Positions 4,637 to 63,890 of a stretch of 64,000 nt of DNA are shown here, piece by piece. Every line of letters begins with the position of its first letter. The first letter of the stretch is position 1. This DNA is from Gigantopelta aegis (taxonomy: Eukaryota > Mollusca > Gastropoda > Neomphalida > Peltospiridae). The translations under genes and the position numbers were made by a program. Location: the NCBI RefSeq assembly GCF_016097555.1, contig NC_054712.1:42043880-42107879 (forward strand). The letters run 5' to 3'. Below the pieces are notes generated by a model. The model worked only from the letters and a program-made list of their open reading frames with translations. It ran no database searches and was not told the origin of the DNA.

Positions 4637-4867
4637 GTGAATAGTCTACATCATATTGTGTAACATTGAGTAAAATTTATGAATCTGTCAGTGAATGATC
4701 TACACTGACTACAATGTGACTGTACAAACAGAAACCACAAAAAAATGTAATGTGTAACACTAAGTGAAATTTCTCATTCTGTCGGAGAATAGTCTACACT
4801 GTACAAACAGAAACCACCAAAAAACGAATTGTGTAACGCTGAGTGAAATGTCTGAATCTATCATTAA
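4637..4867 (+). repeat. Donor-bearing tandem repeat, 3 decayed copies
   Basis: The first intron bases GTGAATAGTCTACA recur at 4691 (GTGAATGATCTACA) and 4785 (AGAATAGTCTACA). Each is followed by a TGTGTAAC(A/G)(C/T)T...GTGAAATTTCT block. Copy 1 is the working donor, copy 2 keeps a GT, and copy 3 has lost it. Confidence 0.65.
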
Positions 4868-4905
4868 AACAATGATGGTGTCCATGTGTAGTGAATTTTG
4901 GTTTT

Positions 4906-4999
4906 GCACTGGCATAGGAAGTGGTGGGAGGGGCAGTAGGGTTATGTGCCCACCCCCCACTTTGTAGCAGCAGCGATGGTATTTATACATGTATATATG

Positions 5000-5033
<34 letters not shown>

Positions 5034-5036
5034 TGT

Positions 5037-5075
<39 letters not shown>

Positions 5076-5140
5076 CCCCACTTTTTGGCACCTTCTTACG
5101 CCTGTGTGTTGTAATCACTAAATAAAGTGCTGTAACTATT
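4906..5140 (+). mobile_element. hAT-like MITE with TATG/TA tract
   Basis: Ends CACTGGCATAGGAAGTGG and CACCTTCTTACGCCTGTGTG form imperfect inverted ends of the CAGTGGCGTAGG type. Inside are a G/C-rich arm, (ATGT)n at 5003-5040 and (TA)n at 5041-5064. Family assignment is by end similarity only. Confidence 0.45.
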
Positions 5141-5154
5141 GTTGATGGCATCAC

Positions 5155-5310
5155 TGACCATAGGCATCGGAAACGGGGGGCCAGGGGGTACTGCCCCCCC
5201 CCCCAACTCAGAAACTCGGGGGCCACAATATGAACTTGAATTTAATAAGTGCCCCCCCCCCCCCCCCCCCTCCAGTTGCTGCCATCTTCTGATGCCTATA
5301 CTGACCAACA
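5155..5310. mobile_element. GC-cored MITE with poly-C
   Basis: CATAGGCATCGGAAACGGGG on the left pairs with GATGCCTATACTG on the right. The core has two C runs (5198-5211, 5251-5270). It resembles other hAT-like short elements in the window. Confidence 0.45.
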
Positions 5311-5399
5311 TAACATCACTTGACACTAATTCAGTGGCATTAATAGCAGCTCTGTTGGTATTTCGTTTTTAAAATAAAGGAAAATTTACAAAATAAATA

Positions 5400-6240
5400 G
5401 AAATATTCATAATTTTCAGACCTTGTCATTTAAGGGGAGCTCTCTCTTTGGCTCCCCATATCTCGCTAGTTTACTCCCATCAGTCTAGCCTATAAGAATC
5501 TATTTACAAATCTTTAATGATATCACATACATGTGTTGCCATGACATTAAAGTCACAAGACATTACTGAAGTCTTTGAGTCTACACTTTAATGGTTTTAT
5601 ATTAGGCATGAGGCTTGCTCCACAACTGACATATCAGAACTGAATATGCACACTGTGAGACAATATAGTTTCTTTTGCACATTGCTCACATAAGGCTAGT
5701 TTTGCATCACAAAAAGTCTTCATTCAAACATATTTAGGACATTATTTAGGTCATGATGGGTGATGCAAAAATTGAAAAGAGTTACATCAACTTGTTTTTG
5801 CAAAATCCACAAATGGTTTACACAAATGTTCAGTTAATTTTCTCAGAGACCTGCTGTAACTTATGTGTTAGCAGCGAGTTTCTTCTCTGAGTTTCTTCTC
5901 TCACTTTCTACTCCAATTTTCGTAAAACTTAGTAGATATATTTTCACATATGACAGGGTGTCATTAAGGAAAGGTTCACTTTCTTTTCCTTTCCTTATTT
6001 TAATATGTTTATAAATACAAAATAAACACTGTCACAGGCATTCTAGAGAACATCTTTTTCAGTATTGCATTGAGATTTGTCACACAAGTTTCAGAGATAG
6101 ATACACAATTTTTTAAAATTAAACAGTAGTTGCTACTCAATTTTTAATTAACTAACAAAACTCGCTAATCAAGATTTTAAAGACAAAATGTACAAATCCT
6201 GTACACTCTTTTATTGGATGTCACGTTTTGTTTTTGTGTG
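5400..6240 (+). other. CCNDBP1 intron without recognisable features
   Basis: Unannotated AT-rich intron. No coding frame, strong inverted repeat or tandem array was recognised here. Confidence 0.5.
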
Positions 6241-6247
6241 TTTACAG

Positions 6248-6324
6248 ACAATAAAGAGGCCAGTCTGGCTGTTGTTGCCGACACCTCGGAGCTTGTTACT
6301 GATGCTCTGCAGGAACTACATGAG
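6248..6324 (+). CDS. CCNDBP1: CCNDBP1 exon
   Basis: Acceptor TTTACAG, donor GTGAGG. It reads (D)NKEASLAVVADTSELVTDAL then QELHE, aligning with human DNKAAALLMLTKNVDFVKDA. It ends in phase 0. Confidence 0.92.
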
Positions 6325-6358
6325 GTGAGGCTTGTGGAAAATGTATTGCAGGATGTCT

Positions 6359-6680
6359 GGGGGCGAGACGTAGCCCAGTGGTAAAGCGCTTGCTTGATGC
6401 GCGGTCAGTGTGGGATCGATCCCCGTCAGTGGGCCCATTCGGCTATTTCTCGTTCCAGTCAGTGCACCACGACTGGTATATCAAAGGCTGTGGTATGTAC
6501 TACCCTGTCTGTAGGATGGTGCATATAAAAGATCCCTTGCTGCTAATCGAACAAGAGTAGCCCATGAAGTGGCGACAGCGGGTTTCCTCTCTCAGTATCT
6601 GTGTGGTCCGTAACCATATGTCTGACGCCATATAATAGTAAATAAAATGTGTTGAGTGTGTTGTTAAATAAAACATACAG
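6359..6680 (+). mobile_element. SINE type A, near full length
   Basis: A good reference copy. The head is GGGCGAGACGTAGCCCAGTG and the B-box-like block is GGATCGATCCC. The body runs through GTGCATATAAAAGATCCCTT and the GTGGCGACAGCGGGTTTCC block. The tail is GTTGTTAAATAAAACAT. Confidence 0.93.
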
Positions 6681-6983
6681 GATGTCCGTTAAGCTCATCA
6701 TAAAGATTCATTCTCGAAGTTGCATATTTTAGTCATTTCAATCTTGAAATACTTTTGTTATGCTTGGATTGGTCCAAATAATATTTTACTTGGAAAAATG
6801 ACGTTCATAACTGTATGAATCTGGTGTTAATTTGTCTGTCACCCTTATTGAATTTTTCAATAATATAAATAGCGAACGCTTTACCACTGGGCTACATCCC
6901 GCCCCATGGTATTCTGAGTTTCACTATCTGGTGTGTCATTAAGCAAGCATTGCTGTCTCCTCATTATTTCATTTCATCTTCAG

Positions 6984-7289
6984 GCTGTGCACTGTGAAGA
7001 AGTGGCTGATTTTAACGAGATGCAGGAGAGAGCTGACGACGAACCAGAGGTGTCATGGAGCGCAGAAGACAAAACTCTTGTCGTGTCGTGTACCGGTCTC
7101 ATCAAAACCGTCAAGTCACTGCTCAAGAAGACTGAGTCAGCAGTCAAGTCCCAGGGCAGCTGTCAATCCAAGATGGCCGTCGAGGTGCTGGACAAGGTGG
7201 TGGAAGCTGTGATCAGACTGAGTCCGCTAGTTGATGATTTGGCGGCCAGTCTGTATCCACCCATTTCAGATGAAGTAGTGAGAGAACAT
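6984..7289 (+). CDS. CCNDBP1: CCNDBP1 largest exon in window
   Basis: It has 102 codons, acceptor CATCTTCAG and donor GTAAGT. It opens AVHCEEVADFNEMQERADDE, an acidic linker, then WSAEDKTLVVSCTGLIKTVK and SLLKK. It closes LSPLVDDLAASLYPP. Human CCNDBP1 has YWSEDDQELIIPCLALVRAS and ISPSVDDLALSIYPP, so both the order and the hallmark VDDLA.S.YPP block are kept. This is the C-terminal helical domain, used for partner binding in the family. Exon phase is 0 on both sides. Confidence 0.95.
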
Positions 7290-7331
7290 GTAAGTTAATC
7301 TAGTTTCCTTGTTTGAACTTATTAATACTAG

Positions 7332-7590
7332 GGGGACGGGACTTAGCTCAGTCGGTTGAGTGCTCGTTTGAGGGGTTTGCATCCATTCAACTAATTGTTT
7401 TTTTCTCGTTCCAATCAGTGCACCACAACTGGTCAAAGGCCATGGTATGTGCTTTCCTGTCTGTGGGAAAGTGCATATAAAAGATCTCTTTCTGCGTTGG
7501 GGAAAAATGTAGCAGATTTCCTCTGATGACTACGAGTCAGAATTACCAAATGTGCTTCAGTGGTGTCATTAAACAAAACAAACTTTTGGT
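7332..7590 (+). mobile_element. SINE type B
   Basis: The head is GGACGGGACTTAGCTCAGTC, more tRNA-like than type A. The body is shared (GTTCCAATCAGTGCACCACA) and the tail is GTGGTGTCATTAAACAAAAC. It lies just downstream of the exon ending at 7289. Confidence 0.85.
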
Positions 7591-8243
7591 ATTAATTCTA
7601 TGTAGTGGAAAAGGTGCGAGGGAGTGTGCATTCTTAAAAAAACAATTTACAAGCCACATATTGGTGAGTTAAGTATTATTTGTTTATTAATCTACACATT
7701 CAAGTTTATATTCCTTTATTCACTGAATGTTCAATGCAATATTTATGGCAAAATTAAATATTATTTTAATGCGGGTATGTTAGTGAATAATTCAGTTAAA
7801 ATCAAAAGGAATATTTAGAAACCCTCAGCAGTGAATGGCTGTCATTTCTATTTTTATACTAGAGCTATAGTAAATGCTGGGAGAATGTAGGTGTGTCAGA
7901 ATTAATGTAATCATATTCTAATAAAGTTTTAAACATTGATCTACCCAGCTCATTTGTCCTCAAAGCCGCTAATGTAATCTGCAAATTGCTGAAATACACA
8001 TGTATTTACTAAGCCTATTTGCATGTTCATATTCAGTTCGGAGGAGAAATGAATAATTGTGGAAGTGTTCTCAGAGATGTAATTGCTGTCAGTGATGTAG
8101 TTGGTCAATATTTGGGCTATAGTTATTTTTGATACTCGGTGATCAGGCACAGTTGTAATCACCTAGATCTTTTGTTATTTACTGTAATCCTTTAGCAGTA
8201 TGTTTTGTTTTGTGTAAAGCAAATGTTTTTCTCTTTATTTCAG

Positions 8244-8290
8244 AGCAACACACTATCGTCAGAAATTGCAAACCATCTTAGTTTTATGAG
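8244..8290 (+). CDS. CCNDBP1: CCNDBP1 exon
   Basis: A 47-base exon, acceptor TTTATTTCAG, donor GTATGT. It reads SNTLSSEIANHLSFM plus AG, which with the next A gives Arg. It corresponds to human VSVLKKALEITKASHVTP. It is too short to be found as an ORF and is supported by phase on both sides. Confidence 0.85.
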
Positions 8291-8324
8291 GTATGTTTAC
8301 TAATTATATGTATTGGGTAACCTG

Positions 8325-8590
8325 GCCTGGTGCTTATAAAACTGGGCTATTTCTCGTTCCAGCCAGTGCCCCATGACTGGTATATCAAAGGCCGTGGTAT
8401 GTACTACCCTGTCTGTAGGATGGTGCATATAAAAGATCCCTTGCTGCTAATTGGAAAGAGTAGCCCATGAAGTGGCGATCGGGTTTCCTCTCTCAATATC
8501 TCTGTGGTCCTTAACCATATGTTTGATGCCATATAACCGTAAATAAAATGTGTTGAGTGCATCGTTAAATAAAACATGTCTTTCTGTCTT
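8325..8590 (+). mobile_element. SINE type A, head truncated
   Basis: It starts in the body at CTGGGCTATTTCTCGTTCC and runs to a normal tail at GTGCATCGTTAAATAAAACA. Confidence 0.88.
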
Positions 8591-8599
8591 AATAGAGTC

Positions 8600-8860
8600 T
8601 GTCAGTCTGAGATGTGAACGTCATGGCAACGCCATACAAATTGTATGCTTGTGACATCATTAGAGATGAGTCTGGGCTCAACTTTTATAAGCATGGGCCC
8701 TGGACTCCATGTGAAAAAAATTGAGGTGCATGTTTAATTATAATTGGTACCGTCTAAACTCTTTAGTTAATGATCACACGGGGCTTACATGAATATGACT
8801 TACATCCATTACCACATTTTTGTAATATATCAAGGGGTTAGTGCCAGAACCCATTATATG
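8600..8860 (-). repeat. Dispersed repeat, inverted partner of 13041-13265
   Basis: GACATCATTAGAGATGAGTC and GCCCTGGACTCCATGTGAAA occur here and, as the reverse complement, at 13140-13230. A further piece (GGGGTTAGTGCCAGAACC) recurs inverted near 12560. These are two diverged copies of one element about 4.4 kb apart. Confidence 0.7.
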
Positions 8861-9647: not shown

Positions 9648-9965
9648 GGGGGCAAGACGTAGCCCAGTAGTAAAGTGCTGGCCTGGTGTACGGTCAGTCT
9701 AGGATCGATCCCTGTTAGTGTAATCATTGGACTATTTCTCGTTCCAGCCAGTGCTTCACAACTGGTGTTACAGACCATGATATGTAGGCCTACTATCCTG
9801 TCTGTGGGATGATACATATATTAAAGATCCCTTGGTGCTAATAAAAAAAATAGTTGCCCATAGTTTCCTCTCTAAAATATATTTGTGGTCATTAATCACA
9901 TGTCTGACACCACATACCTGTAGTTGTGTTGAGTGTGTCATTAAATATAAAATTCCTTTCTTTCT
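9648..9965 (+). mobile_element. SINE type A
   Basis: Head GGGGCAAGACGTAGCCCAGT, body GTTCCAGCCAGTGCTTCACA, tail GAGTGTGTCATTAAATATAA. Moderately diverged. Confidence 0.9.
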
Positions 9966-9969
9966 TTCT

Positions 9970-12560: not shown

Positions 12561-12607
12561 TCTGGCACTAACCCCTCGATATCCTGATACTGTACGTGTA
12601 AATGAGA

Positions 12608-13776: not shown

Positions 13777-13885
13777 ATATTCCTATCTGACAACAGAAGA
13801 TGACGAACAGTGGATTGATTTCTTGATGAAGGCGAATGAACACAATCTGAACAAGATTGTAAAACTAACATCCAATGCCCCTTGA
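13777..13885 (+). CDS. CCNDBP1: CCNDBP1 terminal exon
   Basis: Acceptor TCTCTTACAG after a long pyrimidine tract. It reads (R)YSYLTTEDDEQWIDFLMKAN then EHNLNKIVKLTSNAP and TGA at 13883-13885. Human ends PEDSWIPLLINAIDHCMNRI KELTQSELEL, a clear match. The last 47 coding bases, the stop and the first 3' UTR bases form the first copy of a 53-bp triplication. The third copy would end KLTSSAE before its stop, which resembles the vertebrate tail more than TSNAP does. The present C-terminus may therefore come from a younger copy. Confidence 0.92.
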
Positions 13886-13997
13886 TACATGAACACACTC
13901 TGAACAAGATTGTAAAACTAACATCCAATGCCCCTTGATACATGAACACACTCTGAACAAGATTGTAAAACTAACATCCAGTGCCGAGTGATATGCA
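13838..13997 (+). repeat. 53-bp triplication spanning the CCNDBP1 stop codon
   Basis: GAACAC(A/T)(A/C)TCTGAACAAG recurs at 13838, 13891 and 13944, exactly 53 bases apart. Copies 1 and 2 share CCAATGCCCCTTGATACATG. Copy 3 differs there (CCAGTGCCGAGTGATATGC). Copies 2 and 3 lie in the 3' UTR. Confidence 0.93.
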
Positions 13998-14299: not shown

Positions 14300-14995
14300 C
14301 CTGTGTGGTGGTTTTACTATTTCAACCAAGTTAGCAAGTTTTCTCTTACTATTTATTTTAACCAAGTGTGCAAGTTTTCTCTTTTACTGTTACAACCAAG
14401 TGTGCAAGTTTTCTCTTTTACTGTTACAACCAAGTGTGCAAGTTTTCTCTTTTACTGTTACAACCAAGTGTGCAAGTTTTCTCTTTTACTGTTTCAACCA
14501 AGTGTGCAAGTTTTCTCTTTTACTGTTACAGCCAAGTGTGCAAGTTTTCTCTTTTACTGTTAAACCAAGTGTGCAAGTTTCCTGTTTTACTGTTTCAACC
14601 CAGTGTACAAGTTTTCTCTTTTACTGTTTCAACCAAGTCAGCAAGTTTTCTCTTTTACTGTTTCAACCAAGTGTATAAGTTTTCTCTTTTACTGTTTCAA
14701 CAAAGTCAGCAAGTTTTCTCTTTTACTGTTTCAACCAAGTCAGCAAGTTTTCTCTTTTACTGTTTCAACCCAGTGTACAAATTTCCTCATTTACTGTTTC
14801 AACCCAGTATACAAATTTTCTCTTTTACTATTTCAACCAAGTCAGCAAGTTTTCTCGTTTACTGTTTCAACCAAGTGTGCAAGTTTCCTCATTAACTATT
14901 TCAACCAAGTGTGCAAGTTACCTCATTAACTATTTCAACCAAGTGTCTGCAAGTTTCCTCATTAACTATTTCAACCAAGTGTTAAAATGAATCTA
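14300..14995 (+). repeat. 34-bp minisatellite, about 20 copies
   Basis: Units of the form CAAGTTTTCTCTTTTACTGT then TTCAACCAAGTGTG, with variants (CAGC for GTGC, CCCAGTGTAC). The pyrimidine-rich unit gives long spurious frames on the + strand. It lies in the CCNDBP1 3' flank. Confidence 0.95.
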
Positions 14996-22989: not shown

Positions 22990-23103
22990 TTAGTTGGGCG
23001 TTTCATCAACGGCTGCGCTTTCCCACGTCCCCAGGTACCAGTACATGAGCAGATACACACCCGCCACCAGGCCGAACATGGCTCCCACGATCAGAATCAC
23101 CTC
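22990..23103 (-). CDS. TRIQK: TRIQK exon 3 (C-terminal, membrane segment)
   Basis: Acceptor CTCTCTCCACAG, stop TAA at 22992-22990. It reads EVILIVGAMFGLVAGVYLLM then YWYLGTWESAAVDETPN. Vertebrate TRIQK has EVGLVLAAILALLLAFYAFF followed by a YLRLTTD tail, so position, charge before the segment and length all agree. The hydrophobic run of about 20 residues is a single membrane span. TRIQK proteins are small ER-associated membrane proteins of unclear role. Coding length over three exons is 92 residues against 86 in human. Confidence 0.88.
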   Translation of the reverse strand, partial: EVILIVGAMFGLVAGVYLLMYWYLGTWESAAVDETPN

Positions 23104-23123
23104 CTGTGGAGAGAGAGAGAAGA

Positions 23124-23442
23124 AAGGAAATGTTTTATTTAACGACACACTCAACACTTTTTATTTACGGTTATACAACGTCCGACATATGGTTAAGGAC
23201 CACATAGATATTGAGAGAAAAAACCTGCTGTCGCCATTTCATGGGCTACTCTTTTCGATTAGCAGCAAGGGATCTTTTATATGCACCATCCCACAGATAG
23301 GATAGTACATACCACAGCCTTTGTTATACCAGTTGTGGAGCACTGACTGGAACAAGAAATAGCCCAAAGGGTCCACCGACGGTGATCGATCCTAGACCGA
23401 CCTCGCATCAAGCGAATGCTTTACCACTGGGCTACATTCCCA
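23124..23442 (-). mobile_element. SINE type A in TRIQK intron 2
   Basis: A full reverse copy from GGAAATGTTTTATTTAACGA to TTACCACTGGGCTACATTCC. Its 3' tail lies only about 20 bases upstream of the exon 3 acceptor, next to the pyrimidine tract. Confidence 0.93.
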
Positions 23443-25230: not shown

Positions 25231-25316
25231 CTGAATACCTAATACAGATTGCTTCTGGTCAGCATGTCTCTTTTGTGCCTTTGTGTCTTTCTTTGACTTT
25301 TTATAATCCTGTTTAC
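25231..25316 (-). CDS. TRIQK: TRIQK exon 2
   Basis: Acceptor TTATTTCAG, donor GTGAGA. After two bases completing Gly it reads KQDYKKSKKDTKAQKRHADQ then KQSVLGIQ. Human TRIQK has GKQDYKKTKPILRATKLKAE then AKKTAIGIK: the QDYKK motif and the GI(Q/K)E junction are conserved. This is the basic cytosolic part bearing two of the QxxK/R motifs. It has 28 codons and ends in phase 0. Its first 18 bases and the acceptor are copied five more times upstream in the intron. Confidence 0.92.
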
Positions 25317-25660
25317 CTGAAATAATACAAATAGTATTAGACTAAGTACTGTATATAATTATTTTATAATCCTGTTTATCTGAAGTAACACAAATAGTAT
25401 TAGACCACATGTAAGTACCGTATATAATTATTTTATAATCCTGTTTACCTGAAGTAACACAAATAGTATTAGACTAAGTACCGTATATAATTATTTTATA
25501 ATCCTGTTTACCTGAAGTAACACAAATAGTATTAGACTAAGTACCGTATATAATTATTTTTATAATCCTGTTTACCTGAAGTAACACAAATAGTATTAGA
25601 CTAAATACCGTATATAATTATTTTTATAATCCTGTTTACCTGAAATAACACAAAAAGGAT
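25298..25660 (-). repeat. 63-bp array carrying the TRIQK exon 2 acceptor
   Basis: Six units each contain, on the minus strand, TTACTTCAG directly followed by GTAAACAGGATTATAAAA, the start of exon 2. The unit bordering the exon is the working copy. Use of an inner acceptor would read KQDYK and then soon reach a stop, so extra copies would not give a longer protein. Confidence 0.92.
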
Positions 25661-25999
25661 ATAATTACATGTGGCACATATAATTGGAGGCATAAATGCC
25701 ATCCACAAGTTTTAACTGTTATAAAATTTAAAAAATTAAAACTATTAAAACATTTTTGTTGTTGTGGTATCATTTTTTATATTAACTATCTTAATCACTC
25801 TTTAAAAATCTAAAACATAATTAAACTATTGAAATAAAGAGACAAAATTTAAATGTGGTGTCAATTTATGTGTATCCAAATTCAAGGTCAATAAATTTCA
25901 ATGTCTCTTAAAAATGTTTTATTTAAAGTAATGATTTTTATGTTATTACATCTATATGAAGTAATGCAAATTTCAAAAACAATGGATTATTTATCACCT

Positions 26000-26935
26000 G
26001 TTTCTGGTACTATTCACTGGGTGTGGTTGGAATGGGAAAAGTACTATGTGTTTCTGGTACTATTCAGTGGGCGTCATTGAAATGGAAAAAGTATTACATG
26101 TGTGTATCCAGTACTGTTCGGTAGTTGTGGCTGGAATGGGACAAGTGTTACCTTTGTGTTTCCAGTACTGTTTAGTGGGTATGGTTGGAATGGAAATAGT
26201 ATCACCCATATAGATGTCTTTCCGGTATTGTTCAGTGGGTGTGGTTGGAACGGGAAAACTATCACCCATAGATGTCTTTGTGGTATTGTTCAGTTGGTGT
26301 GGTTTGAATGGTAAAAGTATCACATATGTGTTTCCAGTACTGTTTAGTGGGTGTGGTTGGAATGGGAAAAATATCACACATATTTCTATTTGCTGTACTA
26401 GTGGGTGTGGTTGGAATGGGAAAAGTATCACATGTGTTTCCAGCACTGTTTAGTTGGTATAGTTGGAACAGGAAAAATATCACCCATAGATGTCTTTCAG
26501 GTATTGTTCAATGGGTGTGGTCGGAATGGTAAAAGTATCATCTGTGTGTTTCCAGTACTGTTCAGAGGGTGGTTGGAATGGTAAAAGTATCACCTATGTG
26601 TTTCCAGTACTGTTCAGAGGGTGGTTGGAATGGTAAAAGTATCACCTATGTGTTTCCAGTACTGTTCAGAGGGTGGTTGGAATGGTAAAAGTATCACCTA
26701 TGTGTTTCCGGTACTGTTCAGTGGGTGAGGTTGGAATGGTAAAAGTATCACCTATGTGTTTCCGGTACTGTTCAGTGGGTGAGGTTGGAATGGTAAAAGT
26801 ATCACCTATGTGTTTCCGGTACTGTTCAGTGGGCGAGGTTGGAATGGTAAAAGTATCACCTATGTGTTTCCGGTACTGTTCAGTGGGTGAGGTTGGAATG
26901 GTAAAAGTATCACCTATGTGTTTCCGGTACTGTTC
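26000..26935 (-). repeat. Donor-bearing minisatellite from TRIQK exon 1 edge
   Basis: About 17 units. The seven nearest the exon are regular 51-54-bp units with GAACAGTACCGGAAACACAT then AGGTGATACTTTTACC on the minus strand, and those further into the intron are more diverged. Each regular unit encodes EQYRKHIG and carries the exon 1 donor AG/GTGATA. 54 is divisible by three, and the frame is open through five extra units (to 26666). Confidence 0.93.
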
Positions 26936-26992
26936 GACTGGTGGGACGTGGGTCCCGGTGTTTACGTTGCTGGTAGCATCTTTCTTCCCCAT
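26914..26992 (-). CDS. TRIQK: TRIQK exon 1 (start codon exon)
   Basis: ATG at 26992-26990 reads MGKKDATSNVNTGTHVPPVE then QYRKHI plus G, followed by the donor GTGATA. Human TRIQK begins MGRKDAATIKLPVDQYRKQI, so the start is certain. The first QxxR motif (QYRK) ends the exon. A possible acceptor (CCTTGCAG) lies 29 bases upstream, so the 5' leader may be in a separate exon. The exon edge is the youngest-looking unit of the minisatellite that continues into the intron. Confidence 0.92.
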
Positions 26993-28492: not shown

Positions 28493-28886
28493 TTAAAGGG
28501 CTTAGGGACATTCCTGAGTTTGTTGCATTGTAAGATGTTTCCGACTAATAAATTATTTCTACGATTAACCTTACATATTAAATATGTTTTCTTGTTTAGA
28601 ATATTAATGTCTGTATATTCAATGTGTTTCTGGTCATATTTGTAAGAAGCCCAAACTGGATGTTGTCTTCAAATAATTTCGTTTGTACGAAAAAATATAT
28701 TTTAGGAAATAAAATAAAATTTAACATAGTACAAATATTAGAATGATCAGAAACACGTTTAATATACAGCCACTAATATTTTATGCAGAACAATATATTT
28801 GATATGTAATTACAATCGTTAAAAAGTCTCCATTAGTCGATAAAATCTTAAAAATTGCAGCAAACTCAGGGGAATGTTCCTTTAAG
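28493..28886. mobile_element. TIR element family E
   Basis: The left end is TTAAAGGGCTTAGGGACATT then CCTGAGTTTGTTGCA. The right end is TTGCAGCAAACTCAGGGGAA then TGTTCCTTTAA. The copy at 56603-56998 has cleaner ends. It is flanked by TTAA and about 390 bp long with no coding frame; a TTAA target would suit piggyBac-type mobilisation (inference). Confidence 0.7.
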
Positions 28887-37415: not shown

Positions 37416-37656
37416 TCATTCTAGATCGTAAGAGACATAGCCATAGGATTGATGAAGGTTGCCATTTGAGAAACGCGCAAAATGAAGACGGCAATCGTGG
37501 TCGGTACTGCGGTAGGAAAATGCTACACAGCGAGTATTGTATCTGCAGTTCTGCACACACATAACTTTATTTAAGACGACTTTCGAAGATATGAAGTCCT
37601 TGAGCATCTCGACGTTATTCATAAATTTAATCCTCGTCCAGCTAGTATCTGCTCGA
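37416..37656 (-). CDS. Secreted PAN/apple-domain protein, exon 2
   Basis: Acceptor ATTCTCTTTCAG, stop TGA at 37418-37416. With AG from exon 1 it gives S, then RADTSWTRIKFMNNVEMLKD, FISSKVVLNKVMCVQNCRYN and TRCVAFSYRSTDHDCRLHF. It ends GYVSYDLE. The cysteine pattern C-x3-C-x5-C-VAFSY-x(n)-C-xLH is that of PAN/apple domains, which bind protein or sugar outside the cell. Full length with exon 1 is 95 residues: a signal peptide plus one PAN domain and nothing else. The closed phase, poly(A) signal and TATA box argue for a real gene. No named orthologue recognised. Confidence 0.82.
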
Positions 37657-37769
37657 CTGAAAGAGAATATGATATTATGATACCACATGACTCACCGATA
37701 AATATCAGCATCTTACAACAAGTCTGTCCAAGGGTACATATATATGTATAGAAGAAAATACAAGATTAA

Positions 37770-38740
37770 TATATGATATCATGTTTTTAACTGACATTGA
37801 AAAAGCTTTTGACCCAATATCCTGGACTTTTATAAAAAGACACACTAGACATTTTTTAACTTCAAGACGTTTATTAAAACTTGGATTAAAACATCATATA
37901 ATAATTCCAGATCAAGTGTAATACAAAACGGATTTCTCTCTGAAGTTAGAAAAATGTTGTAGGCAAGGTGATTCCTTGTCTCCTTATTTATATTTTTTTT
38001 GTTGAAATCCTAGGCATCATATCATGGATGGAAAAGAATACTTAATATCACAATATGCAGATGGTACAAGTTTTATTCTTAATGGTTCCCCACAGTCTCT
38101 ATACAATACGCTGTCAATTTTAGACTATTATGCGCAAGTGTCTTGCCTCAAAATAAATTATACTAAATCTAAAGCTATTTTGATAGGAAATAAAAAATAT
38201 TCAAAGGAAGTTTACAATCATACTATGAATTAATGAATGAATGAATGTTTAACGACACCCCAGCACGAAAAATACATCGGCTATTGGGTGTCAAACTATG
38301 GTAATGCAAATAAATAAAGTGATGATCAACATCAATATAAAAATTCAAGGTTTAAACAAAAACAGTGTAAAGAACTGTGCAAAAACACAAATATCACAGA
38401 ATTTTACGGATACTGAATTTTACTCAAAACTTCAATTTTGTGCTGTATTGGCCATTCTCAAAGAAAATGTTACACCCCTGCACCACGGTGAGGTTACAGC
38501 ACGCGCAGGGGACAATCATACCAGGTGGAAGTTAGAATGAGGTGCTGAGCAGTTTACCGTACTTGGTTAATTAATGAACTGAACTATGAATCAAAAATAG
38601 CGGAAATGGAAACATTTATGAAAATATGGTCTATTAGAAAACCCAACCGACGTATATTTACGAATAACCTAAGTGGACTAATCTCTTTAAATCTATTACA
38701 GGCATATCTACAAAAGATTTAGTTATCCATGGTGACTATT
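37770..38740 (+). mobile_element. L1/Tx1-like LINE fragment
   Basis: Plus-strand residues FLTDIEKAFDPISWTFI, then after a frame change CRQGDSLSPYLY, then GKEYLISQYADGTSFILNGS (the YADD box, with G for the second D) and SCLKINYTKSKAILIGNKK, are the core of an L1/Tx1-type reverse transcriptase. After a foreign piece (about 38228-38560) it resumes with LNYESKIAEMETFMKIWSIR. It lacks endonuclease and 3' end and has stops and frameshifts; it is dead and 5' truncated. Confidence 0.8.
38228..38330 (-). mobile_element. SINE-like tail piece inside the LINE
   Basis: (GAAT)n then GTTTAACGACACCCCAGCAC and CGGCTATTGGGTGTCAAACT. A similar start is at 55747-55800. It separates two collinear parts of the LINE. 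Confidence 0.6.
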
Positions 38741-38906
38741 TAATTACCTTTAAACTAAAACAAATACAAAATCGATTTTGCAGAGACACATATAGCTGAG
38801 TACAAATACAACAAAAGCAACACCCCAAAACTGTAGATGACACTCAAGGCATTAACACCACAGTTGGTACAATTGCAAAATTGTAATAAATGTGTGTGCG
38901 TGTATA

Positions 38907-38914
<8 letters not shown>

Positions 38915-38972
<58 letters not shown>
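38915..38972. repeat. (TA)n microsatellite
   Basis: About 28 TA units after a GTGTATATATG lead. Confidence 0.96.
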
Positions 38973-38975
<3 letters not shown>

Positions 38976-39196
38976 AAAATACCTAAAATACCTTAAAACT
39001 GGTATAATTTTTATAGGTGATGTATTAAATAAACAAAGAGACCATTTAATATTATTCCCATAGACATGTATTAATAATACAAATTTAATATTTAAATTCA
39101 ATCTTTCTTTCCGTCTATCTTTCTTTCTTCCTTTTCTGTTAACCACAGAAATCTTTATTTTTTCATGAACAAATATTCATTATTACTAGCATAAGG

Positions 39197-39198
<2 letters not shown>

Positions 39199-39272
<74 letters not shown>
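39199..39272. repeat. (TA)n microsatellite
   Basis: About 37 TA units, immediately followed by a near-perfect hairpin. Confidence 0.96.
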
Positions 39273-39274
<2 letters not shown>

Positions 39275-39277
<3 letters not shown>

Positions 39278-39387
39278 AAACTACATATATGTGGTTTTCT
39301 GATTTCTGTATTCCACTCGTGTATTCGCTGCCGGAAATACACTTGTGGAATACAGAAATCAGAAAACCACATATATGTAGTTTTGTA
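39275..39387. repeat. Near-perfect hairpin beside (TA)n
   Basis: Left arm CAAAACTACATATATGTGGT then TTTCTGATTTCTGTATTCCA; the right arm is its complement ending ACATATATGTAGTTTTG. The arms are about 50 bp with a loop around CGCTGCCGG and at most a few mismatches. Confidence 0.9.
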
Positions 39388-39924
39388 TTTATTACATACC
39401 CTAAATTGGAATTGTGTTTCCAAATAAGAGTTAAAAAATTGTAACACTGCTAGCTAATGACGGGGATTTCTCAATTTACACAACTAGGTAAGCTGTATTA
39501 CTACCCGGACCGATGAACCACCAATTATTACACATAGGAACATAGTTCTATTTAAACAAATAAAAAGAAATAAGAAAGAATGAGTGAAAAGTTACCTATT
39601 TTAATGATATTGTTTGAAATGCCCTTTAAAGACAATGTAATAGCTAAAATTCACAAACAATGTAATATTTAATTTGCTCGTAATACGTCACAAAACCTTC
39701 AGCGCGTCAGTTTTATCAACGAAGAAAAATGTCAAGAATTGTTCACTCAATGTCTGTCGTCATCGATGTGTTTTCTTTTAAATTGATGTTCATGGAATTA
39801 CTCGTTGCTGAAAAATTAAGTTCATATTAAATGTGCACCCATAAATCATCGCTCCACTGAATAATCCGGTTGTCAGTTCATCTAAGTTTTTTTACGCGAG
39901 GAGACGGCGTATGCGATGTCATTG

Positions 39925-40495
39925 TTGTTAAAGTCGACGAAAGTCACTTTTCGCACCCTTGTTTTGGCTTCGTACATAATAAATATAGCATATGTTATCC
40001 ATATTTTGTAAAAGGTACAATTTTTTAATCACAAGATTTTGTTCAAACATATTCAGGTGCATTAGTAATGTTAAAATAAAATCAATAGCAATTTTGCATT
40101 GGAATTTTTCCAATATTCTTAAAAAGGAAATGTCATGTACCCAGTTTATGGTTATTGTAAGGAGATGCAAAGTGACGTCATTGGAATATGATGTCATTTA
40201 AATTCAAAATTAGCAATATTATTACAATGCTTCGCCACATTAAAATAAAAGCTAGTCTACTAACTTTGACCCCTGTCAAATTCCTATAACAAGCAGACAA
40301 GGTTGTTTACAGGTCGGTGTTTTATTTTTCATAATTCTGGACAAAATATTAATTTTAAGTTTTAACAGATAAAAGAAATAAAAAGTACTTTTTGTCAAAT
40401 ATATCATATCACAAAATTACCGTTGGATATGTTTTATTTATTGTGTACGAAGCCAAAATGAGGGTCCAAAAAGTGACTGTTGTGGATTAACAGCT
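39925..40495. mobile_element. TIR element, about 0.55 kb
   Basis: Left AAAGTCACTTTTCGCACCCT then GTTTTGGCTTCGTACATAAT. Right TTGTGTACGAAGCCAAAATG then AGGGTCCAAAAAGTGACTG. The inverted ends are about 50 bp. No transposase frame; non-autonomous. Confidence 0.75.
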
Positions 40496-40703
40496 CGTTG
40501 GTGAGTAGTGTTCCCGTCTCTAGTTTTGGTATCGCGCTTATTAAATTGTAAATATTCGTCACCGTTTTCGTCTGTTTTCAGTTCAAATGTTCCACAATAT
40601 AGCATTTTAAACAAGGATAACAGTTAGCTGCTTTAATAGGCAATTCAAACCAAGCACCAACTTTGTTTACATGTCGCTAAGGGCATTCCTGGTAACCATG
40701 TGC

Positions 40704-40704
<1 letters not shown>

Positions 40705-40768
<64 letters not shown>

Positions 40769-40800
40769 TATGTATGTGTATATGTATATGTATGTATATG
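40705..40800. repeat. (TA)n / TATG compound microsatellite
   Basis: TA tract to 40754, then CA, then TATG repeats. Confidence 0.95.
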
Positions 40801-40950
40801 TAATATATATACAACTATATATTTTCAGTTTATATATTATGTACAATTTCTAACCTATAATAAAACTGTAAGGTAGTGATATCAACCTCTCAACCCGTAC
40901 AAATTTGTTTATGGGGTTAATAAACTTTATTTAGAAAAAATATATAAAAA

Positions 40951-41205
40951 GACTGAAAGGGAATATTATGATACTGTGATATGACATGCGTCACCATTAG
41001 ATATCAGCATCCTACAACGAGTCTATCCACGACTGAAAGAGAATATTATGATAAGGTGATATCACATGAGTCATCGTTAGATATCAGCATCCTGCGAGTC
41101 TGTCCACGACTGAAAGAGAATATTATAATACTGTGATATCACATGAGTCACTGTTAGATATCAGCATCCTACGAGTCTTTCCACGACTGAAATGGAATAT
41201 TATGT
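40951..41205 (-). repeat. Array carrying the PAN exon 2 acceptor
   Basis: GACTGAAAG(G/A)GAATATTATG recurs at 40951, 41031, 41108 and 41185, each followed by GATATCAGCATCCT. On the minus strand this is ATATTCTCTTTCAGTC, the exon 2 acceptor with its first bases. The first unit of the same array, bordering the exon, is at 37655-37735; 3.2 kb of mobile elements lie between. Confidence 0.88.
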
Positions 41206-56559: not shown

Positions 56560-56602
56560 CTAAAAACAACACAAATAGTAGAACAAATCAGTTTCTTTCC
56601 TT

Positions 56603-56998
56603 AAAGGGGCATTCCTGAGTTTGCTGCATTGTAAGATGTTTCTGACTAATAAAATATTTCTACGATTAAACACATATTAATTATATTTTCTTGTTTAGAA
56701 TATCACTGTCTGTATATTCAATATGTTTCTGGTCATCTTAATATTTGTAAGAAGCCCAAACTGGATTTTGTCTTCAAATAATTTCGTACGTACGAAAAAA
56801 TATACTTTAGGAAATAAAATGAAATGTAACCTAGTACAAATATTAGAACGATCAGAAACACGTTTAATATACAGTCACTAATATTTTATGCAGAAAAATA
56901 TATTTGATATGTAATTACAATCGTTAAACGGTCTCTGTTAGTCGATAACATCTTAAACATTGCAGCAAACTCAGGAATGTCCCTTTAATGATGTCCTG
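56603..56998. mobile_element. TIR element family E
   Basis: TTAAAGGGGCATTCCTGAGT then TTGCTGCA on the left; TTGCAGCAAACTCAGGAATG then TCCCTTTAA on the right. About 27-bp TIRs with TTAA at both outer edges. Confidence 0.8.
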
Positions 56999-57023
56999 AA
57001 TGATGTTCTAAATAAATGTTAAT

Positions 57024-57403: not shown

Positions 57404-57411
57404 AGGTGTAT

Positions 57412-57537
57412 CTTCTTAATTAATATTAATTTCCCAGTGGGATGTATGTTCTGAATTAATACTAATTTCCCAGTGGGATATTCTGAATTAATATTAATTT
57501 CCCAGTGGGAAGTTCTGAATTCTAATTCACTCGGCAT
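57412..57537 (-). repeat. Outlying units of the SMPD3 exon B donor array
   Basis: TTAATATTAATTTCCCAGTG then GGATGTATGTTCTGAA and three similar units match the 32-bp array at 61735-62176, 4.3 kb away, with GT of the donor changed to GG. Confidence 0.8.
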
Positions 57538-58060: not shown

Positions 58061-58069
58061 TTCTTCAGA

Positions 58070-58790: not shown

Positions 58791-58794
58791 ATAA

Positions 58795-59695
58795 TATTAA
58801 GCTTGTGGAGATGGACGTTTAGGCGGCTGTGGCCTGTGCCAAGCCTGAAGATTGTAGTCTGTGCTCGTCTTTCAAGTGTCTCCCATGGGTCGTGGTTTGT
58901 CACTCCATGTCGTGTTTAAAATCTTTCCTTCTGCTTTCGCTTGATGATATTCTTGATTTCTTAATAAGAGGTGGGGTCTGTTTCCTGAATCATCTTGCTT
59001 CCACATTTTGCTAGTGGATCTGCTTTTTCGTTTCCAGCAATGTTGCAGTGTGCTGGGATCCGCAGCATTGATGTTGTTGTGGTTGTTGATAGCTGTGACA
59101 GTAGGATGTAGATTTTCCGTGATGTGTCTTCTGGAGACGGGGTCTTTTGGAGTACTGATCTGCAGTCGGTGAAGATTACTGCATGTGATGGTGGGAAGAG
59201 TTCTTAGCTGAGGATCTCTAGTGCTTTATGGACTACTTTTGCTTCAGCTTTAATGTTTGAAGAGAGTGATCCAGTTGGTATAGATTTGGAGATTGTTTTT
59301 CCATTTGGGAATTTTATGTAAATTCCCCCTCCTCTATTTTTGATGGCTTCTGCTGATCCATCAGTGTATATATGTGTCCTGATTGTTTTGTTGAAGGTTT
59401 TTTCTATGTGTTCGAGAGTCAGGTTTTTCAGCATATCTGGTGTCATATCTTCTTTCCTGGTGATGCCTGGGATGTCAAGAGAAATGTTGGGAGTTGCCTT
59501 AAGTTCATATTTGTCATTCACAATGTTCCAGATATTTTGAGATGACGTCAGCATGTTTTTCGATTAGGTCTTGTGTTATATGTTTTATACTTTTTCCGTT
59601 TCAGTCTGTTTCTGCAGCATTCTTGCATCGATTTGTGCGCTGGGTGATCCGGGAGTCTTTTTAACTTCTCTCCACAAGCATAATAATTTATAGGT
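58795..59695 (-). mobile_element. LINE, inverted 5' part with RNase H domain
   Basis: On the minus strand, EKLKRLPDHPAHKSMQE is followed in other frames by the RNase H domain: HIYTDGSAEAIKNRGGGIYI and KAEAKVVHKALEIL. After one in-frame TAA come FTDCRSVLQKTPSPEDTS and IPAHCNIAGNEKADPLAKCG, then a run like LGTGHSRLNVHL. These are the D, E, D and H..N.AD motifs in order. A LINE of the jockey/I-like groups that carry RNase H is likely; frame changes and stops show it is dead. Confidence 0.8.
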
Positions 59696-59709
59696 CACAC
59701 AAGCGACTG

Positions 59710-59960
59710 TCAAAGTGGCACAGGCCTGCAAACACCAGGACATATCCTACAACAATGTCCACTACACAACTCGGAGGGAAGCCAACTCTGGCCACATGGA
59801 ACAGAACTACATCAGAAGCTCTGGGAATCCAGGGAGGACCTGCAAACAACTGCCCAATTCATCACTCAGATCGGAATATCTGTATGAGACAATTATCAAC
59901 GAAGAAGATGATCCCACAATACTCTGTGATCTTAATATTTATATAATTTAGAGCATTTTA
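59710..59960 (+). mobile_element. LINE, 3' end in direct orientation
   Basis: Plus-strand TGLQTPGHILQQCPLHNSEG then SQLWPHGTELHQKLWESRED and LQTTAQFITQIGISV with TGA near 59886 is the C-terminal zinc-knuckle-and-tail region that should follow RLNVHL in the same element. Its opposite orientation to 58795-59695 is explained by twin priming. Confidence 0.75.
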
Positions 59961-60955
59961 GAAGGACAGTCCAAAAATAAATAAGACAAAGAAGAGAGGA
60001 TCGGACTATTTAATAATATTTTTTAAAAAGAAAGTAATTTCTACATAATTTTTTTAACGAAGGTCTAAAAATTTAAAGTACGATCTATATGTCCACACGT
60101 GTGGCCTCCTTAAGGCCATTAGGGCGCACATCTGATAGGAATGAGATGTCAAGAAAACCCCTAGATTAACAGTCATTAGACGTTGAAGGTGTAATGCTGT
60201 GCGGAAATACAGATCTTGAGAAGTGAGATCCGTCTGAACGAGAGAGAATATCAGACTAGGGTATAGTCTAGTTGTCGTAGGTTGGTATAGTGGCGCGGAC
60301 GGGCCCGACTCTGGAGAATTCGAGATGGTATCAATATAAAACAATTACAGTATTCGAGATTAACGGTATCCCGATATCCCGGGGATACCAGAATTTAATT
60401 GTGGATACCAGACTTCAAAAACCCAGTATCCCACCGGGATACCATATAAAACTAAATTCTCAGGTGGGATACCAGATTTTGAAATGTTAGTATCCAACTG
60501 GGATACTGCCTAAAAAATTTTAATCTCGAACGCTAAATTAAGTCTAGAAAAGAGTAGTAGGGGCTGACCCCGCTTTCAATTTCTTCTTAAGAGTGGGGCG
60601 GTCAATCTTCCAGTGCTGCTAGGACAGACTCAGACACGTAGAGACTAAACGCGAACAACCGTGGCGTCATACGAGTCGCGGGAAAGAAAGTCGACATAGG
60701 TCAGCGGGAGAAATGACGTGGAGGCAAGGAATCTCGCTAAAAAAGATTCCAACCTGGTGTTGCAGATTGTCGAAACGAGAAGCGTTCCAGCGTTCAAACA
60801 GTTCCATTGGCCGCATACATCCCAGTAGAAAACTCCATTTCGCTTGGAGGATTCCCAAGTCGAGCACACGAAAGTATGTGCAGTATGCACAAGCGAAACA
60901 AGCACGTCTTACCGCATCGAGCTCCAGACTGGGGATGACCAATCAGGCACCACAG
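59960..60955. other. Unassigned stretch with moderate GC
   Basis: Minus frames at 60054-60344 and 60645-60942 have no domain I recognise. 60355-60520 holds several GTATCCC...GGGATAC palindromes. The base composition differs from the surrounding AT-rich intron, so an old mobile element is likely. Confidence 0.4.
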
Positions 60956-60956
60956 G

Positions 60957-61137
60957 TACATCTGGGCTGTCTGTCCAGGACAGTGGGTTAGTTGTTAGTA
61001 AGTGAGAGAGAATAGGGTGTAGTGGCCTAACACCTACCCATTGAACCCTTAAGAACTCGCTCAGGGTTGGAGCGAACCCTGTACCTACCAGCCTGTAGTC
61101 CGGTGGTTTAACCACTGCGTCACCGAGGCAGTCTACA
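60957..61137 (-). mobile_element. SINE type V
   Basis: The reverse copy runs from TCTGGGCTGTCTGTCCAGGA to AACCACTGCGTCACCGAGGC. Confidence 0.88.
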
Positions 61138-61734
61138 GGCACAGGCCACGGAAAGAAACGACCAATTAACTAAGAAAACACTCCGATTATCATGTCAGTC
61201 CGTGGGTTAATGTATGGACAAAACACATTACAGTCATTTCGACACTTTGACAATGGTGATTTATTTTGTATTGAAAAATAATATAAACTTATTGCTGGGT
61301 TACTGGGATGGGTATGATTACAGAGCATTGCAATGCATCCGCAAAAATCGGGTACGTTTTGTTTCTTCAGTTCTAAGACTAATTCCTAACGTGACACGTT
61401 AAGTATTACGTAACCACCGGCTCGCCTAGGGGCGTATTCACTGGAATGGTACAAAATGGCTGTGACCGTTAATAAATATATATGCCATCACATTTAACCA
61501 TTTTATGAATTAAATGTAAGATTATACTTGTTGATATTAAGCAATAATGTGAATTATATATAGTTGAATATGCATACCAGTCCAAAAGCCTTGCTTAATC
61601 ATTCCTTTAACGCTGCGTCCATTCCGAAAATTGACCATTTAAACGGTTTTAAAAAAAGAAAATGCATTTATTGAATTAGAATGGGGATAACTATGTTGTA
61701 TTTGACCATTTGTGGACGTTCATGCTGGTTATAG

Positions 61735-62176
61735 TGAGATGTCCTGCATGAATATTAATTTACCACTAGGGATGTTATGTATATATTAATATCAATAATT
61801 TACCAATCGGGTGTATCTTCTGAATTAATGTTAATTTATCAGTGGTATGTTCTGAATGAATATTAATTTACCAACAGGGATGTTATGTATTAATATATCA
61901 ATTTACCAGTTGGATGTATCTTCTGAATTAATGTTAATTTACCAGTGAGATGTTCTGAATGAATATTAATTTACCACTGGGATGTTCTGAATGAATATTA
62001 ATTTACCACTGGGATGTTCTAAATGAATATTAATTCACCACTGGGGTGTTCGGAATGAATATTAATTTACCATTGGGATGTCCGAATGAATATTAATTTA
62101 CCACTGGGATGTTCTGAATGAATATTAATTTACCACTGGGATGTTCTGAATGAATATTAATTTACCACTGGGATGT
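61735..62176 (-). repeat. 32-bp array carrying the SMPD3 exon B donor
   Basis: About 13 units. On the minus strand each regular unit is ATCCCAGTGGTAAATTAATA then TTCATTCAGAAC. The unit at 62150-62176 is the real exon end, CCCAGTG/GTAAAT. Units further into the intron are more diverged. Read-through meets TAA at once, so extra donors cannot extend the protein. Confidence 0.93.
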
Positions 62177-62500
62177 TATGCCTGCACAGTATGTAGTTGG
62201 TTCTCCTCTTGCCGGACCTCGGCGTTATCAGCGGTTTTCCGCGACCGTCCAGTCTGGGTTGCTGTGCGCGTATCTCGCCGTACGAGCCTTTGACGAGGGT
62301 CGCGTCCACCACATAAAGCGGCCGCTTGAGAGGGCTCTGAAGGGTACGCTGCATGACCTCAGGGCTGGACACCGCCTCCTCGTACAGACTCAACTGCCGC
62401 AGCTTCGTGCCTATTGACCAGGCTTTGTCCACCCCGGGACGCTCCCTGGCTACATCTTCGTACTTGTCAAACAAAGCGTGATGCTGGCAGCTCTTGTCAC
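62166..62500 (-). CDS. SMPD3: SMPD3 penultimate exon (exon B)
   Basis: Acceptor TTCTGCAG, donor GTAAAT. After two bases completing Cys it reads DKSCQHHALFDKYEDVARER, PGVDKAWSIGTKLRQLSLYE and EAVSSPEVMQRTLQSPLKRP. Later come SGKRRTNYILCRH and NIPV. Human SMPD3 has EQQHSLFTHYRDPCRLGPGE, KPWAIGTLLDTNGLYDEDVC and GNGRRIDYMLH in the same order. 111 codons, ending in phase 0. The segment between (YVVDATLVKGSYGEIRAQQP) has no clear human counterpart, as expected for the variable loop. Confidence 0.92.
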
Positions 62501-62517
62501 CTGCAGAACACAAGGTG

Positions 62518-63360
62518 GTTCACTTGTTAGATAGTGAATGTAACTCGTCCGTTAGATGGTGAATGTATCTCATCCATTAGATAGTGAATTTGGTGAAGCG
62601 CTCGCCTGAGGAGCAGTCGGTCTGGGATCGGTACCCGTCGGTGGGCTTATGGGGCCATTTCCCATTACAGCCAGTGCATCATGACTGGTGTATCAAATGC
62701 CGTGGTATGTGATATTCCGTCTGTGGGTTGGTGCATATAAAAGATGCCTTGCTGCTAAAATGTATTTGTAAAAATGACCAAATGTTCGACAAACCATAGC
62801 CGATGACTAATAATCAATGTGCTTTAGTGAAACAAGCTGAAACTTTAACTCTTAGAAAGTGAATGTAGCTCACTTTTGAGATAGTGAATGTAGCTCACTT
62901 GTGAGATAGTGAATGTAGTTCACCAGTTAGATAGTGAATATAGCTCACCCATGAAATAGAATGTAGCTCACCCATTAGATGTTGAATGTAGCTCACGTGT
63001 GAGATAGTGAATATAGCTCACCCATGAAATAGAATGTAGCTCACCCATTAGATGTTGAATGTAGCTCACTTGTGAGATAGTGAATATAGCTCACCCATGA
63101 AATAGAATGTAGCTCACCCATTAGATGGTGAATGTAGCTCACTTGTTTGATCATGAATGTAGCTCACATATTAGTGAATGTAGCTTACTTGTGAGATAGT
63201 GAATATAGCTCACCAATGAAACAGAATGTAGCTCACCCATTAAATGGTGAATGTAGCTCACTTGTTTGACCATGAATGTAGCTCACGTATTAGACAGTGA
63301 ATGTAACTCACCCATTAGGTAATGCATGTTACCCATTAGATTGTACATGGTACCAACTCA
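62518..63360 (-). repeat. Complex array with GTGAGCTA units, split by a SINE
   Basis: Plus-strand units such as GATAGTGAATGTAGCTCACT and CATGAAATAGAATGTAGCTC recur about every 20-40 bases, with a higher-order period of about 125. On the minus strand they repeat GGGTGAGCTACATTC, which is donor-like. The array abuts the exon B acceptor (18 bases away). A SINE occupies 62590-62845. Confidence 0.88.
62590..62845 (+). mobile_element. SINE, type A head with type B tail, inside the array
   Basis: The head is GTGAAGCGCTCGCCTGAGGA with GGATCGGTACCCGTCGGTGG. The tail is AATCAATGTGCTTTAGTGA with AACAAGCTGAAACTTTAAC. Array units continue on both sides. Confidence 0.82.
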
Positions 63361-63384
63361 CAGGGTGTCTTGTTACAAACTCTT

Positions 63385-63890
63385 AAGGTGACATGTTTGC
63401 AACTCACAGGGTGTCGTTTTATCGACTCACAGGGTGACACGTTATTAACTCACATGGTTTCATGTTATCGACTCACAGTGTTACATGTTATCGATTCACA
63501 TTGTGCCATGTTATCGACTCACAGGTTGACATGTTATCGACTCACATGGTAACATGTTATCGACCGAAAGGTTGACATGTTATCGACCCACAGGTTGACA
63601 TGTTATCGACTCACAGGGTGACATGCTATCGACTCACAGGGTGACATGTTATTGACCCACATGGTAACATGTTATCGACCCACAGGTTGATATGTTTTTG
63701 ACCCACAGGTTGACATGTTATTGACTCCCATGGTAACATGTTATCGACCGAAAGGTTGACATGTTATCGACACACCGGGTAACATGTTATCGACTAACAG
63801 GTTGACATGTTATCAACCCACAGGTTGACATGTTATCAACTCAAAGGGTGACATGTTATTGACTCACATGGTGACATGTTATCGAAGTTG
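63385..63890 (-). repeat. 23-bp array carrying the SMPD3 exon A donor
   Basis: 21 units of the minus-strand form GATAACATGTCACCCTGTGA then GTC. The exon edge GATAACATGTCACCAT/GTGAGTC is itself one unit. At least seven intronic units keep GTGAGTC intact. One unit (23) or two (46) would shift the frame. Confidence 0.94.

Follow-up and report, generated by a model that had tools for sequence, protein, structure and literature searches.

Why do minisatellites in the vent snail Gigantopelta aegis repeatedly copy the edges of exons into the neighboring introns? The question is raised by a 64-kb stretch of contig NC_054712.1 (the window, 64,000 nucleotides), which is host nuclear DNA from an assembly of 1.149 Gb and carries four genes: CCNDBP1 on the forward strand and TRIQK, a PAN-domain gene, and SMPD3 on the reverse strand. 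At the affected edges, a segment of 23 to 77 bp, consisting of about 10 to 39 exon bases and the adjoining intron, is repeated ∼4 to 23 times, always into the intron, with the exon edge itself as the outermost copy. We consider these arrays probably to be mirages, that is, minisatellites whose founding unit chanced to span an exon-intron boundary. The rate for exon edges was close to that for intronic positions, and therefore no special seeding is needed. The initial annotation of this DNA had reported copied splice sites in all four genes; we found them in three.

The window contains 25 splice edges, with junctions taken from the G. aegis proteins P0001 (CCNDBP1) and P0002 (TRIQK) and, for SMPD3 and the PAN-domain gene, assigned by reading. 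CCNDBP1 exons 3 to 10, when joined, gave residues 54 to 341 of P0001 with zero differences, and the TRIQK exon model equals P0002 at 92/92 residues. For each edge, a 60-bp probe centered on the junction was compared by alignment with the flanking 2.5 kb in both directions, after masking of microsatellites. A junction-spanning repeat was detected at 4/25 edges (score of at least 18): the TRIQK exon 1 donor, the TRIQK exon 2 acceptor, and the donors of SMPD3 exons A and B. At all four, the copies were confined to the intron side. Five further edges beside the window (CCNDBP1 exons 1 and 2 and SMPD3) were not spanned by a repeat (0/5). Single exon ends and units were also scored against the best of 300 shuffles. 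Minisatellites occupy 6.1 of the 64 kb; the units of different window arrays, compared with one another, look unrelated, and each matches its own exon edge. Scanning the window for tRNAs and, at the gathering threshold, for Rfam families gave no matches. The TRIQK features are as follows (a slash marks the junction).

26914..26992, reverse strand: TRIQK exon 1, coding part (MGKKDATSNVNTGTHVPPVEQYRKHI-G); PF15168, 82.6 bits; P0002, 100% over 92 amino acids
25999..26935, reverse strand: 54-bp array of 17 full units at the TRIQK exon 1 donor (unit alignments)
25231..25316, reverse strand: TRIQK exon 2 (P0002 junctions)
25298..25654, reverse strand: 63-bp array of ∼5.5 units over the TRIQK exon 2 acceptor (TTTCAG/GTAAACAGGATTATAAAA; junction test)

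The exon-proximal unit of the 54-bp array contains the 22 last exon bases and the 32 first intron bases around the donor ATAG/GTGATA (26914/26913), with weaker likeness reaching 39 exon bases. GT is retained in 15/17 units of this array and AG in 5/5 full units of the 63-bp array, whose acceptor boundary is at 25316. Together, the two arrays make up 78% of the 1.6-kb intron, so that both intron ends are affected. The exon ends alone exceeded all 300 shuffles (exon 1, 25 versus a maximum of 18; exon 2, 19 versus 16). The motif YRKxIGKQDYKK straddles the exon 1/2 junction and is present in 5/5 other TRIQK proteins read (three bivalves, an acorn worm, and a starfish, of 14 others listed).

Two donors of SMPD3 are affected in the same manner.

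63345..63885, reverse strand: 23-bp array of 23 units over the SMPD3 exon A donor (AACATGTCACCAT/GTGAGT, 63868/63867; junction test and unit alignments)
62166..62500, reverse strand: SMPD3 exon B (PDB 5uvg, E value of 2.4e-21 for exons A and B jointly)
61736..62177, reverse strand: 32-bp array of 13 units over the SMPD3 exon B donor (CATCCCAGTG/GTAAAT, 62166/62165; junction test)
57407..57521, reverse strand: three more units of the 32-bp family (mean identity of 78 to 86% to the exon-side units)
62526..63329, reverse strand: 25-bp arrays filling much of the intron between exons A and B, interrupted by a repeat resembling a short interspersed nuclear element (SINE)

GT is retained in 18/23 units of the 23-bp array and in 12/13 units of the 32-bp array; the three additional units lie in the intron of the latter array, 4.2 kb farther from the exon. 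Arrays occupy 78% of SMPD3 intron A. The SMPD3 exon ends alone scored below the shuffle maximum (A, 18 versus 23; B, 14 versus 17) because the exon share of the unit is only about 10 to 20 bases. Exon A ends in CGDFNFDN, the same as in PDB 5uvg. A protein search with SMPD3 gave no matches, the query piece probably being too short for full-length relatives. The SMPD3 exon B acceptor was rejected as a further case: its repeat is real (29 versus 18) but ends ∼12 bp before the junction and does not span it.

The fifth case in the window, the PAN exon 2 acceptor, is an array split in two.

37416..37656, reverse strand: PAN-domain gene exon 2, acceptor TTTCAG/TCGAGC (PAN_1, 28.4 bits)
37630..37730, reverse strand: exon-adjacent unit of the ∼77-bp acceptor array (score of 52, best of 300 shuffles 22)
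40951..41204, reverse strand: remainder of the 77-bp array (3.3 units), on the far side of a ∼3.2-kb insertion from the exon

The exon-adjacent unit aligns across the acceptor (37656) into the first ∼27 exon bases, and the strict 2.5-kb test misses this edge because the insertion splits the array. The array seems to be older than the insertion. Seven exon-edge arrays had originally been described; four were recovered by both the junction test and reading, and the PAN array (52 versus 22) holds with the qualification that its remainder lies beyond the insertion, while the two in CCNDBP1 do not span splice sites. The ∼3.2 kb of other DNA (37731-40950) carries reading frames on the opposite strand. 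These frames are putatively reverse transcriptase-like; a Pfam search of three such pieces of the PAN intron gave no match.

The codons at the TRIQK and SMPD3 exon A ends are conserved, and therefore these arrays arose from the exon edges and not the reverse. Derivation from exon edges is supported by sequence comparison where it could be checked, namely, in TRIQK, SMPD3 exon A, and three of the dynein cases described below. This part of the initial proposal stands: ancient codons are copied, copies occur on the intron side only, and other parts of the genome show the same pattern.

How often exon edges are struck was measured in dynein heavy chain genes, a sample chosen without regard to repeats. 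The dynein AAA_6 domain gave 110 exon matches genome-wide, of which 77, in 13 regions totaling 166 kb, were used; the others lie on unplaced contigs or at loci outside these regions. Pairing of neighboring matches by profile continuity, phase, and splice signals yielded 104 firmer edges. Comparison across paralogues gave 58 candidate extra exons, 27 of which were removed because they overlapped another candidate and so looked repeat-like; the 31 kept added 50 less certain edges placed by splice signals alone, for a total of 154. An intron-side spanning repeat was detected at 10/154 edges (6.5%; exact 95% interval, 3.2 to 11.6%; score of at least 25) and an exon-side repeat at none; at a score of 20, two additional exon-side-only matches appeared. 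The firmer edges alone gave 6/104. Seven of the 10 positives are donors and three are acceptors, with up to 27 units at one edge. They fall in 5/13 regions on chromosomes C1, C3, C4, C5, and C8, and therefore mirages are not confined to the window.

Most dynein positives other than one weak case are plain by eye, e.g., a gene in which LVITPLTDR is followed by 22 inner copies. The copied exon part, LVITPLTDR(CY), is conserved and repeated across paralogues. Mirages lie within a few codons of ITPLTDR(CYR) in three dynein paralogues with differing intron positions; four others with an edge nearby have none. A link between these three mirages and intron sliding is possible.

L024:7973-9626: ITPLTDR dynein mirage
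L025:9521 to L026:304: ITPLTDR dynein mirage
L029:3233-3411: ITPLTDR dynein mirage

The background was obtained from 2,904 intronic points at least 80 bp from any edge. One-sided terminal units were found at 5.5% of these points per side, and copies on both sides were found at 11.3%. The ratio of the edge rate to the one-sided intronic rate was 1.19 (binomial P = 0.33; region bootstrap 95% interval, 0.31 to 2.9). Spanning repeats of any kind were rarer at edges (6.5%) than at intronic points (22%; P = 1e-7). The window (4/25) and the dynein sample (10/154) did not differ significantly (Fisher P = 0.11). The G. aegis genome is very minisatellite rich: minisatellites with a period of at least 15 cover 29.0 of the 166 kb of dynein regions, and 24/61 arrays have at least five copies. 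Because the edge rate is near the one-sided intronic rate (6.5% versus 5.5%), special seeding at exon edges, as first proposed, is not supported. Any exon-edge hot spot is limited to about threefold in the sampled genes.

Given this measured background, neutral tolerance is the best explanation, and the alternative that the initial annotation had listed last, simple tolerance of duplications that are spliced out, is the one favored by the data. The founding duplications and those that followed would be products of ordinary tandem-repeat mutation, by slippage or unequal exchange, and such mutation appears to be very active in the snail. Purifying selection on the protein and the splice site would maintain the exon-side copy, and the intron-side copies, being spliced out, would drift. 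Splicing would tolerate the decoys by choosing the outermost, exon-proximal site.

Several observations weigh against this explanation. Seven of the 10 dynein positives fall in 2/13 regions, and 4/10 are on edges placed without a neighboring exon, one of them weak (score of 25). The sample outside the window consists of dynein heavy chains only, and its interval permits up to ∼3-fold enrichment. The evidence that the outermost site is used comes from a single database protein and from homology. The window edges exceed some nulls (P = 3e-4 for founding units and P = 0.005 for the six most-copied arrays), and the exon-ward polarity of the TRIQK exon 1 and SMPD3 exon B arrays is not predicted by pure tolerance.

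The last two points speak for a rival that we consider unlikely, in which exon edges are hot spots where a process acting at splice sites, in transcription, or on exon-edge chromatin starts duplications and old copies are pushed inward. The founding-unit null, in which all 30 window arrays were considered, gave an excess at P = 3e-4, and exon-respecting placement gave P = 6e-4. Random array placement gave P = 0.075 for all 30 arrays, P = 0.030 for the 14 with at least three copies, and P = 0.005 for the six with at least five. The 4/25 edges gave P = 0.12 to 0.40 against points with repeats on one given side and P = 0.009 to 0.06 against points with repeats on one given side only, depending on the threshold. 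Enrichment over random points was rejected: 11 to 19% of random window points lie inside a spanning repeat extending to either side, compared to 4/25 edges. None of the window nulls is a fair test because the reader chose the window for these arrays. In the dynein sample, where 10/154 edges stand against a background of 5.5% (P = 0.33), the hot spot retains only the bootstrap upper bound of 2.9.

Inward aging of units had been suggested for the two longest well-ordered arrays. It is clear in the TRIQK exon 1 array, where likeness falls with distance from the exon (rho = −0.81, P = 1e-4; exonic columns, −0.79; intronic columns, −0.65), and weaker in the SMPD3 exon B array (rho = −0.57, P = 0.04; identity between neighbors, rho = −0.85, P = 5e-4). 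The SMPD3 exon A array had a significant gradient in exonic columns only (rho = −0.55, P = 0.006; overall, −0.40, P = 0.06), and the 63-bp array at TRIQK exon 2 had none; neither of these two is significantly graded over all columns. As a general rule, the exon-to-intron age gradient was rejected, being clear for TRIQK exon 1, partial for SMPD3 exon B, and absent overall. The exon-side third was more typical in 7/10 edge arrays of at least five units (Wilcoxon P = 0.15), and 21 control arrays away from known edges were equally lopsided (mean absolute difference of 0.043 versus a mean signed difference of 0.026 for edge arrays). The three SMPD3 units at 57.4 kb were likewise rejected as the oldest end of a continuous gradient, since the exon-side units become no more similar to them with increasing depth (rho = −0.34, P = 0.26). 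An exon-side copy fixed by selection could by itself give a gradient without directional growth. A weaker form of the hot spot, up to ∼3-fold, with directional duplication that keeps lengthening introns from the exon side and copied sites that feed intron sliding or new protein repeats, lies within the same bound; we regard it as improbable too.

We think it very unlikely that the arrays are retained for a function, either in the regulation of alternative splicing or as in-frame peptide repeats. Each inner TRIQK donor would add 18 residues with QYRK, and the read-through is open for four further copies. Decoy sites are also well retained, with GT/AG present in 142/153 scored inner copies from 14 arrays. 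Retention is, however, only slightly above that of other dinucleotides (86.7%), the units of different genes look unrelated, and unit lengths of 23 and 32 are not divisible by three. The TRIQK protein found in the database, P0002, corresponds to splicing at the outermost sites only and contains none of the four further QYRK copies; the outermost site is presumably picked through exon definition. The same 142/153 gives no sign of selection that purges decoy sites; the decoys are not being removed.

An assembly artefact, with repeats invented or multiplied wrongly by the assembler, is highly improbable: the assembly was made with wtdbg2 from Canu-corrected PacBio reads, as described in PMC7895826, and copy numbers may be inexact, but differences between adjoining units are structured and reach 30% or more, other DNA interrupts the PAN and SMPD3 arrays, and the pattern is repeated on five other chromosomes (C1, C3, C4, C5, and C8). 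Movement of an exon edge into an older minisatellite would equally explain why exon end and array share sequence but is likewise highly improbable, because in TRIQK, SMPD3 exon A, and the three ITPLTDR dynein cases, the residues encoded at the exon ends are conserved in relatives or paralogues and therefore these exons are older than the arrays.

Mirages of this kind have a precedent, of which the initial annotation was not aware. The term mirages was given to amphioxus minisatellites at exon-intron boundaries, described in globins (PMC3087553, which credits an earlier report in Adh3 to Canestro 2002 and calls the mechanism that makes them unclear); PGBD5 and troponin C were added as cases later (PMC3902484). 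According to these accounts, amphioxus mirages resemble the snail arrays in that they span donor or acceptor boundaries with copies in the intron and in that many, though not all, copies retain AG/GT (PMC3087553; PMC3902484). In the snail, the exon-intron boundary is spanned at 4/25 window edges plus PAN and at 10/154 dynein edges, and both 5′ and 3′ boundaries are involved (donors of TRIQK exon 1 and SMPD3 exons A and B; acceptors of TRIQK exon 2 and PAN exon 2). Unit lengths overlap (a reported 10 to 160 bp in amphioxus, 23 to about 90 bp in the snail), and the normal sites appear to be used in both, as judged by reverse transcription-PCR in the amphioxus reports and, indirectly, by P0002 for snail TRIQK. 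Allelic and somatic copy-number instability has been reported for amphioxus, whereas the snail arrays are known from one assembly. The snail differs in its gastropod host, the 10/154 sampled edges, the measured background, arrays of at most 27 units, and a gene, TRIQK, with both intron ends affected.

Two other systems are comparable in part. The intron gain by tandem duplication described for a potato RdRp gene (PMC4974935) likewise involves a tandemly duplicated segment that carries splice signals, but the snail copies existing intron edges into existing introns. Introners are also repeated DNA that carries splice signals; as described in PMC9860276, they are dispersed, insert in many genes, and create introns, whereas each array of the window matches its own exon edge. 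Among gastropods, an intronic minisatellite has been described in abalone (TSSK1-like intron 3, 27-bp unit, polymorphic), and exon-edge spanning is not reported in the available part of that account (PMC6905558). A literature search restricted to open-licence papers found no report of mirages in mollusks, and the G. aegis genome paper, as far as its accessible text goes, does not mention them (PMC7895826). The phenomenon is thus real, recurrent, and already named, and the phylum is new for mirages as far as we found.

Amphioxus-style mirages are therefore not confined to cephalochordates, and the findings suggest that they arise where introns are rich in minisatellites. Were the sampled rate to apply across the genome, about 1 in 15 snail splice edges would have been tandemly copied into the adjoining intron, which would make the genome a large natural experiment in how the spliceosome chooses among near-identical sites, in tolerance of cryptic sites, and in the lengthening and sliding of introns.

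The CCNDBP1 repeats, which include the two claimed arrays that do not span splice sites, are as follows.

13777..13885, forward strand: CCNDBP1 last exon, coding part and stop codon (exon 10 by P0001)
13836..13985, forward strand: 53-bp array of 2.8 units over the CCNDBP1 stop codon, no splice site (score of 51 versus 19)
4637..4900, forward strand: decayed ∼90-bp repeat starting at the CCNDBP1 exon 6 donor, without an exon part (score of 34, best of 300 shuffles 22)

The stop-region array is real (51 versus 19) and contains no splice site. The donor at 4636/4637 belongs to exon 6 by P0001 and had been numbered exon 4; its repeat is real and decayed (34 versus 22), as stated, but starts at the donor and includes no exon sequence. 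Two other CCNDBP1 edges were rejected as cases: the exon 5 donor at 4045 (score of 10 versus a shuffle maximum of 14) and the last acceptor at 13777 (20 versus 20). Just downstream of CCNDBP1, a 34-bp array of 20 units (14312-14982) has long open reading frames in two frames and does not lie at an exon edge.

Further repeats and reading frames were observed in TRIQK and SMPD3. Read-through from TRIQK exon 1 into its array (25999-26992) is open for 108 residues and adds four 18-residue repeats with QYRK in each. A 388-bp repeat occurs at 56605-56988 and 28504-28885 (90% identical), and the SMPD3 exon C acceptor lies 46 bp downstream of the end of the copy at 56605. A SINE-like repeat at 23103-23435, with 20 other matches in the window (72 to 89% identical), ends ∼10 to 16 bp from the TRIQK exon 3 acceptor, and its tail may provide the polypyrimidine tract of that acceptor.

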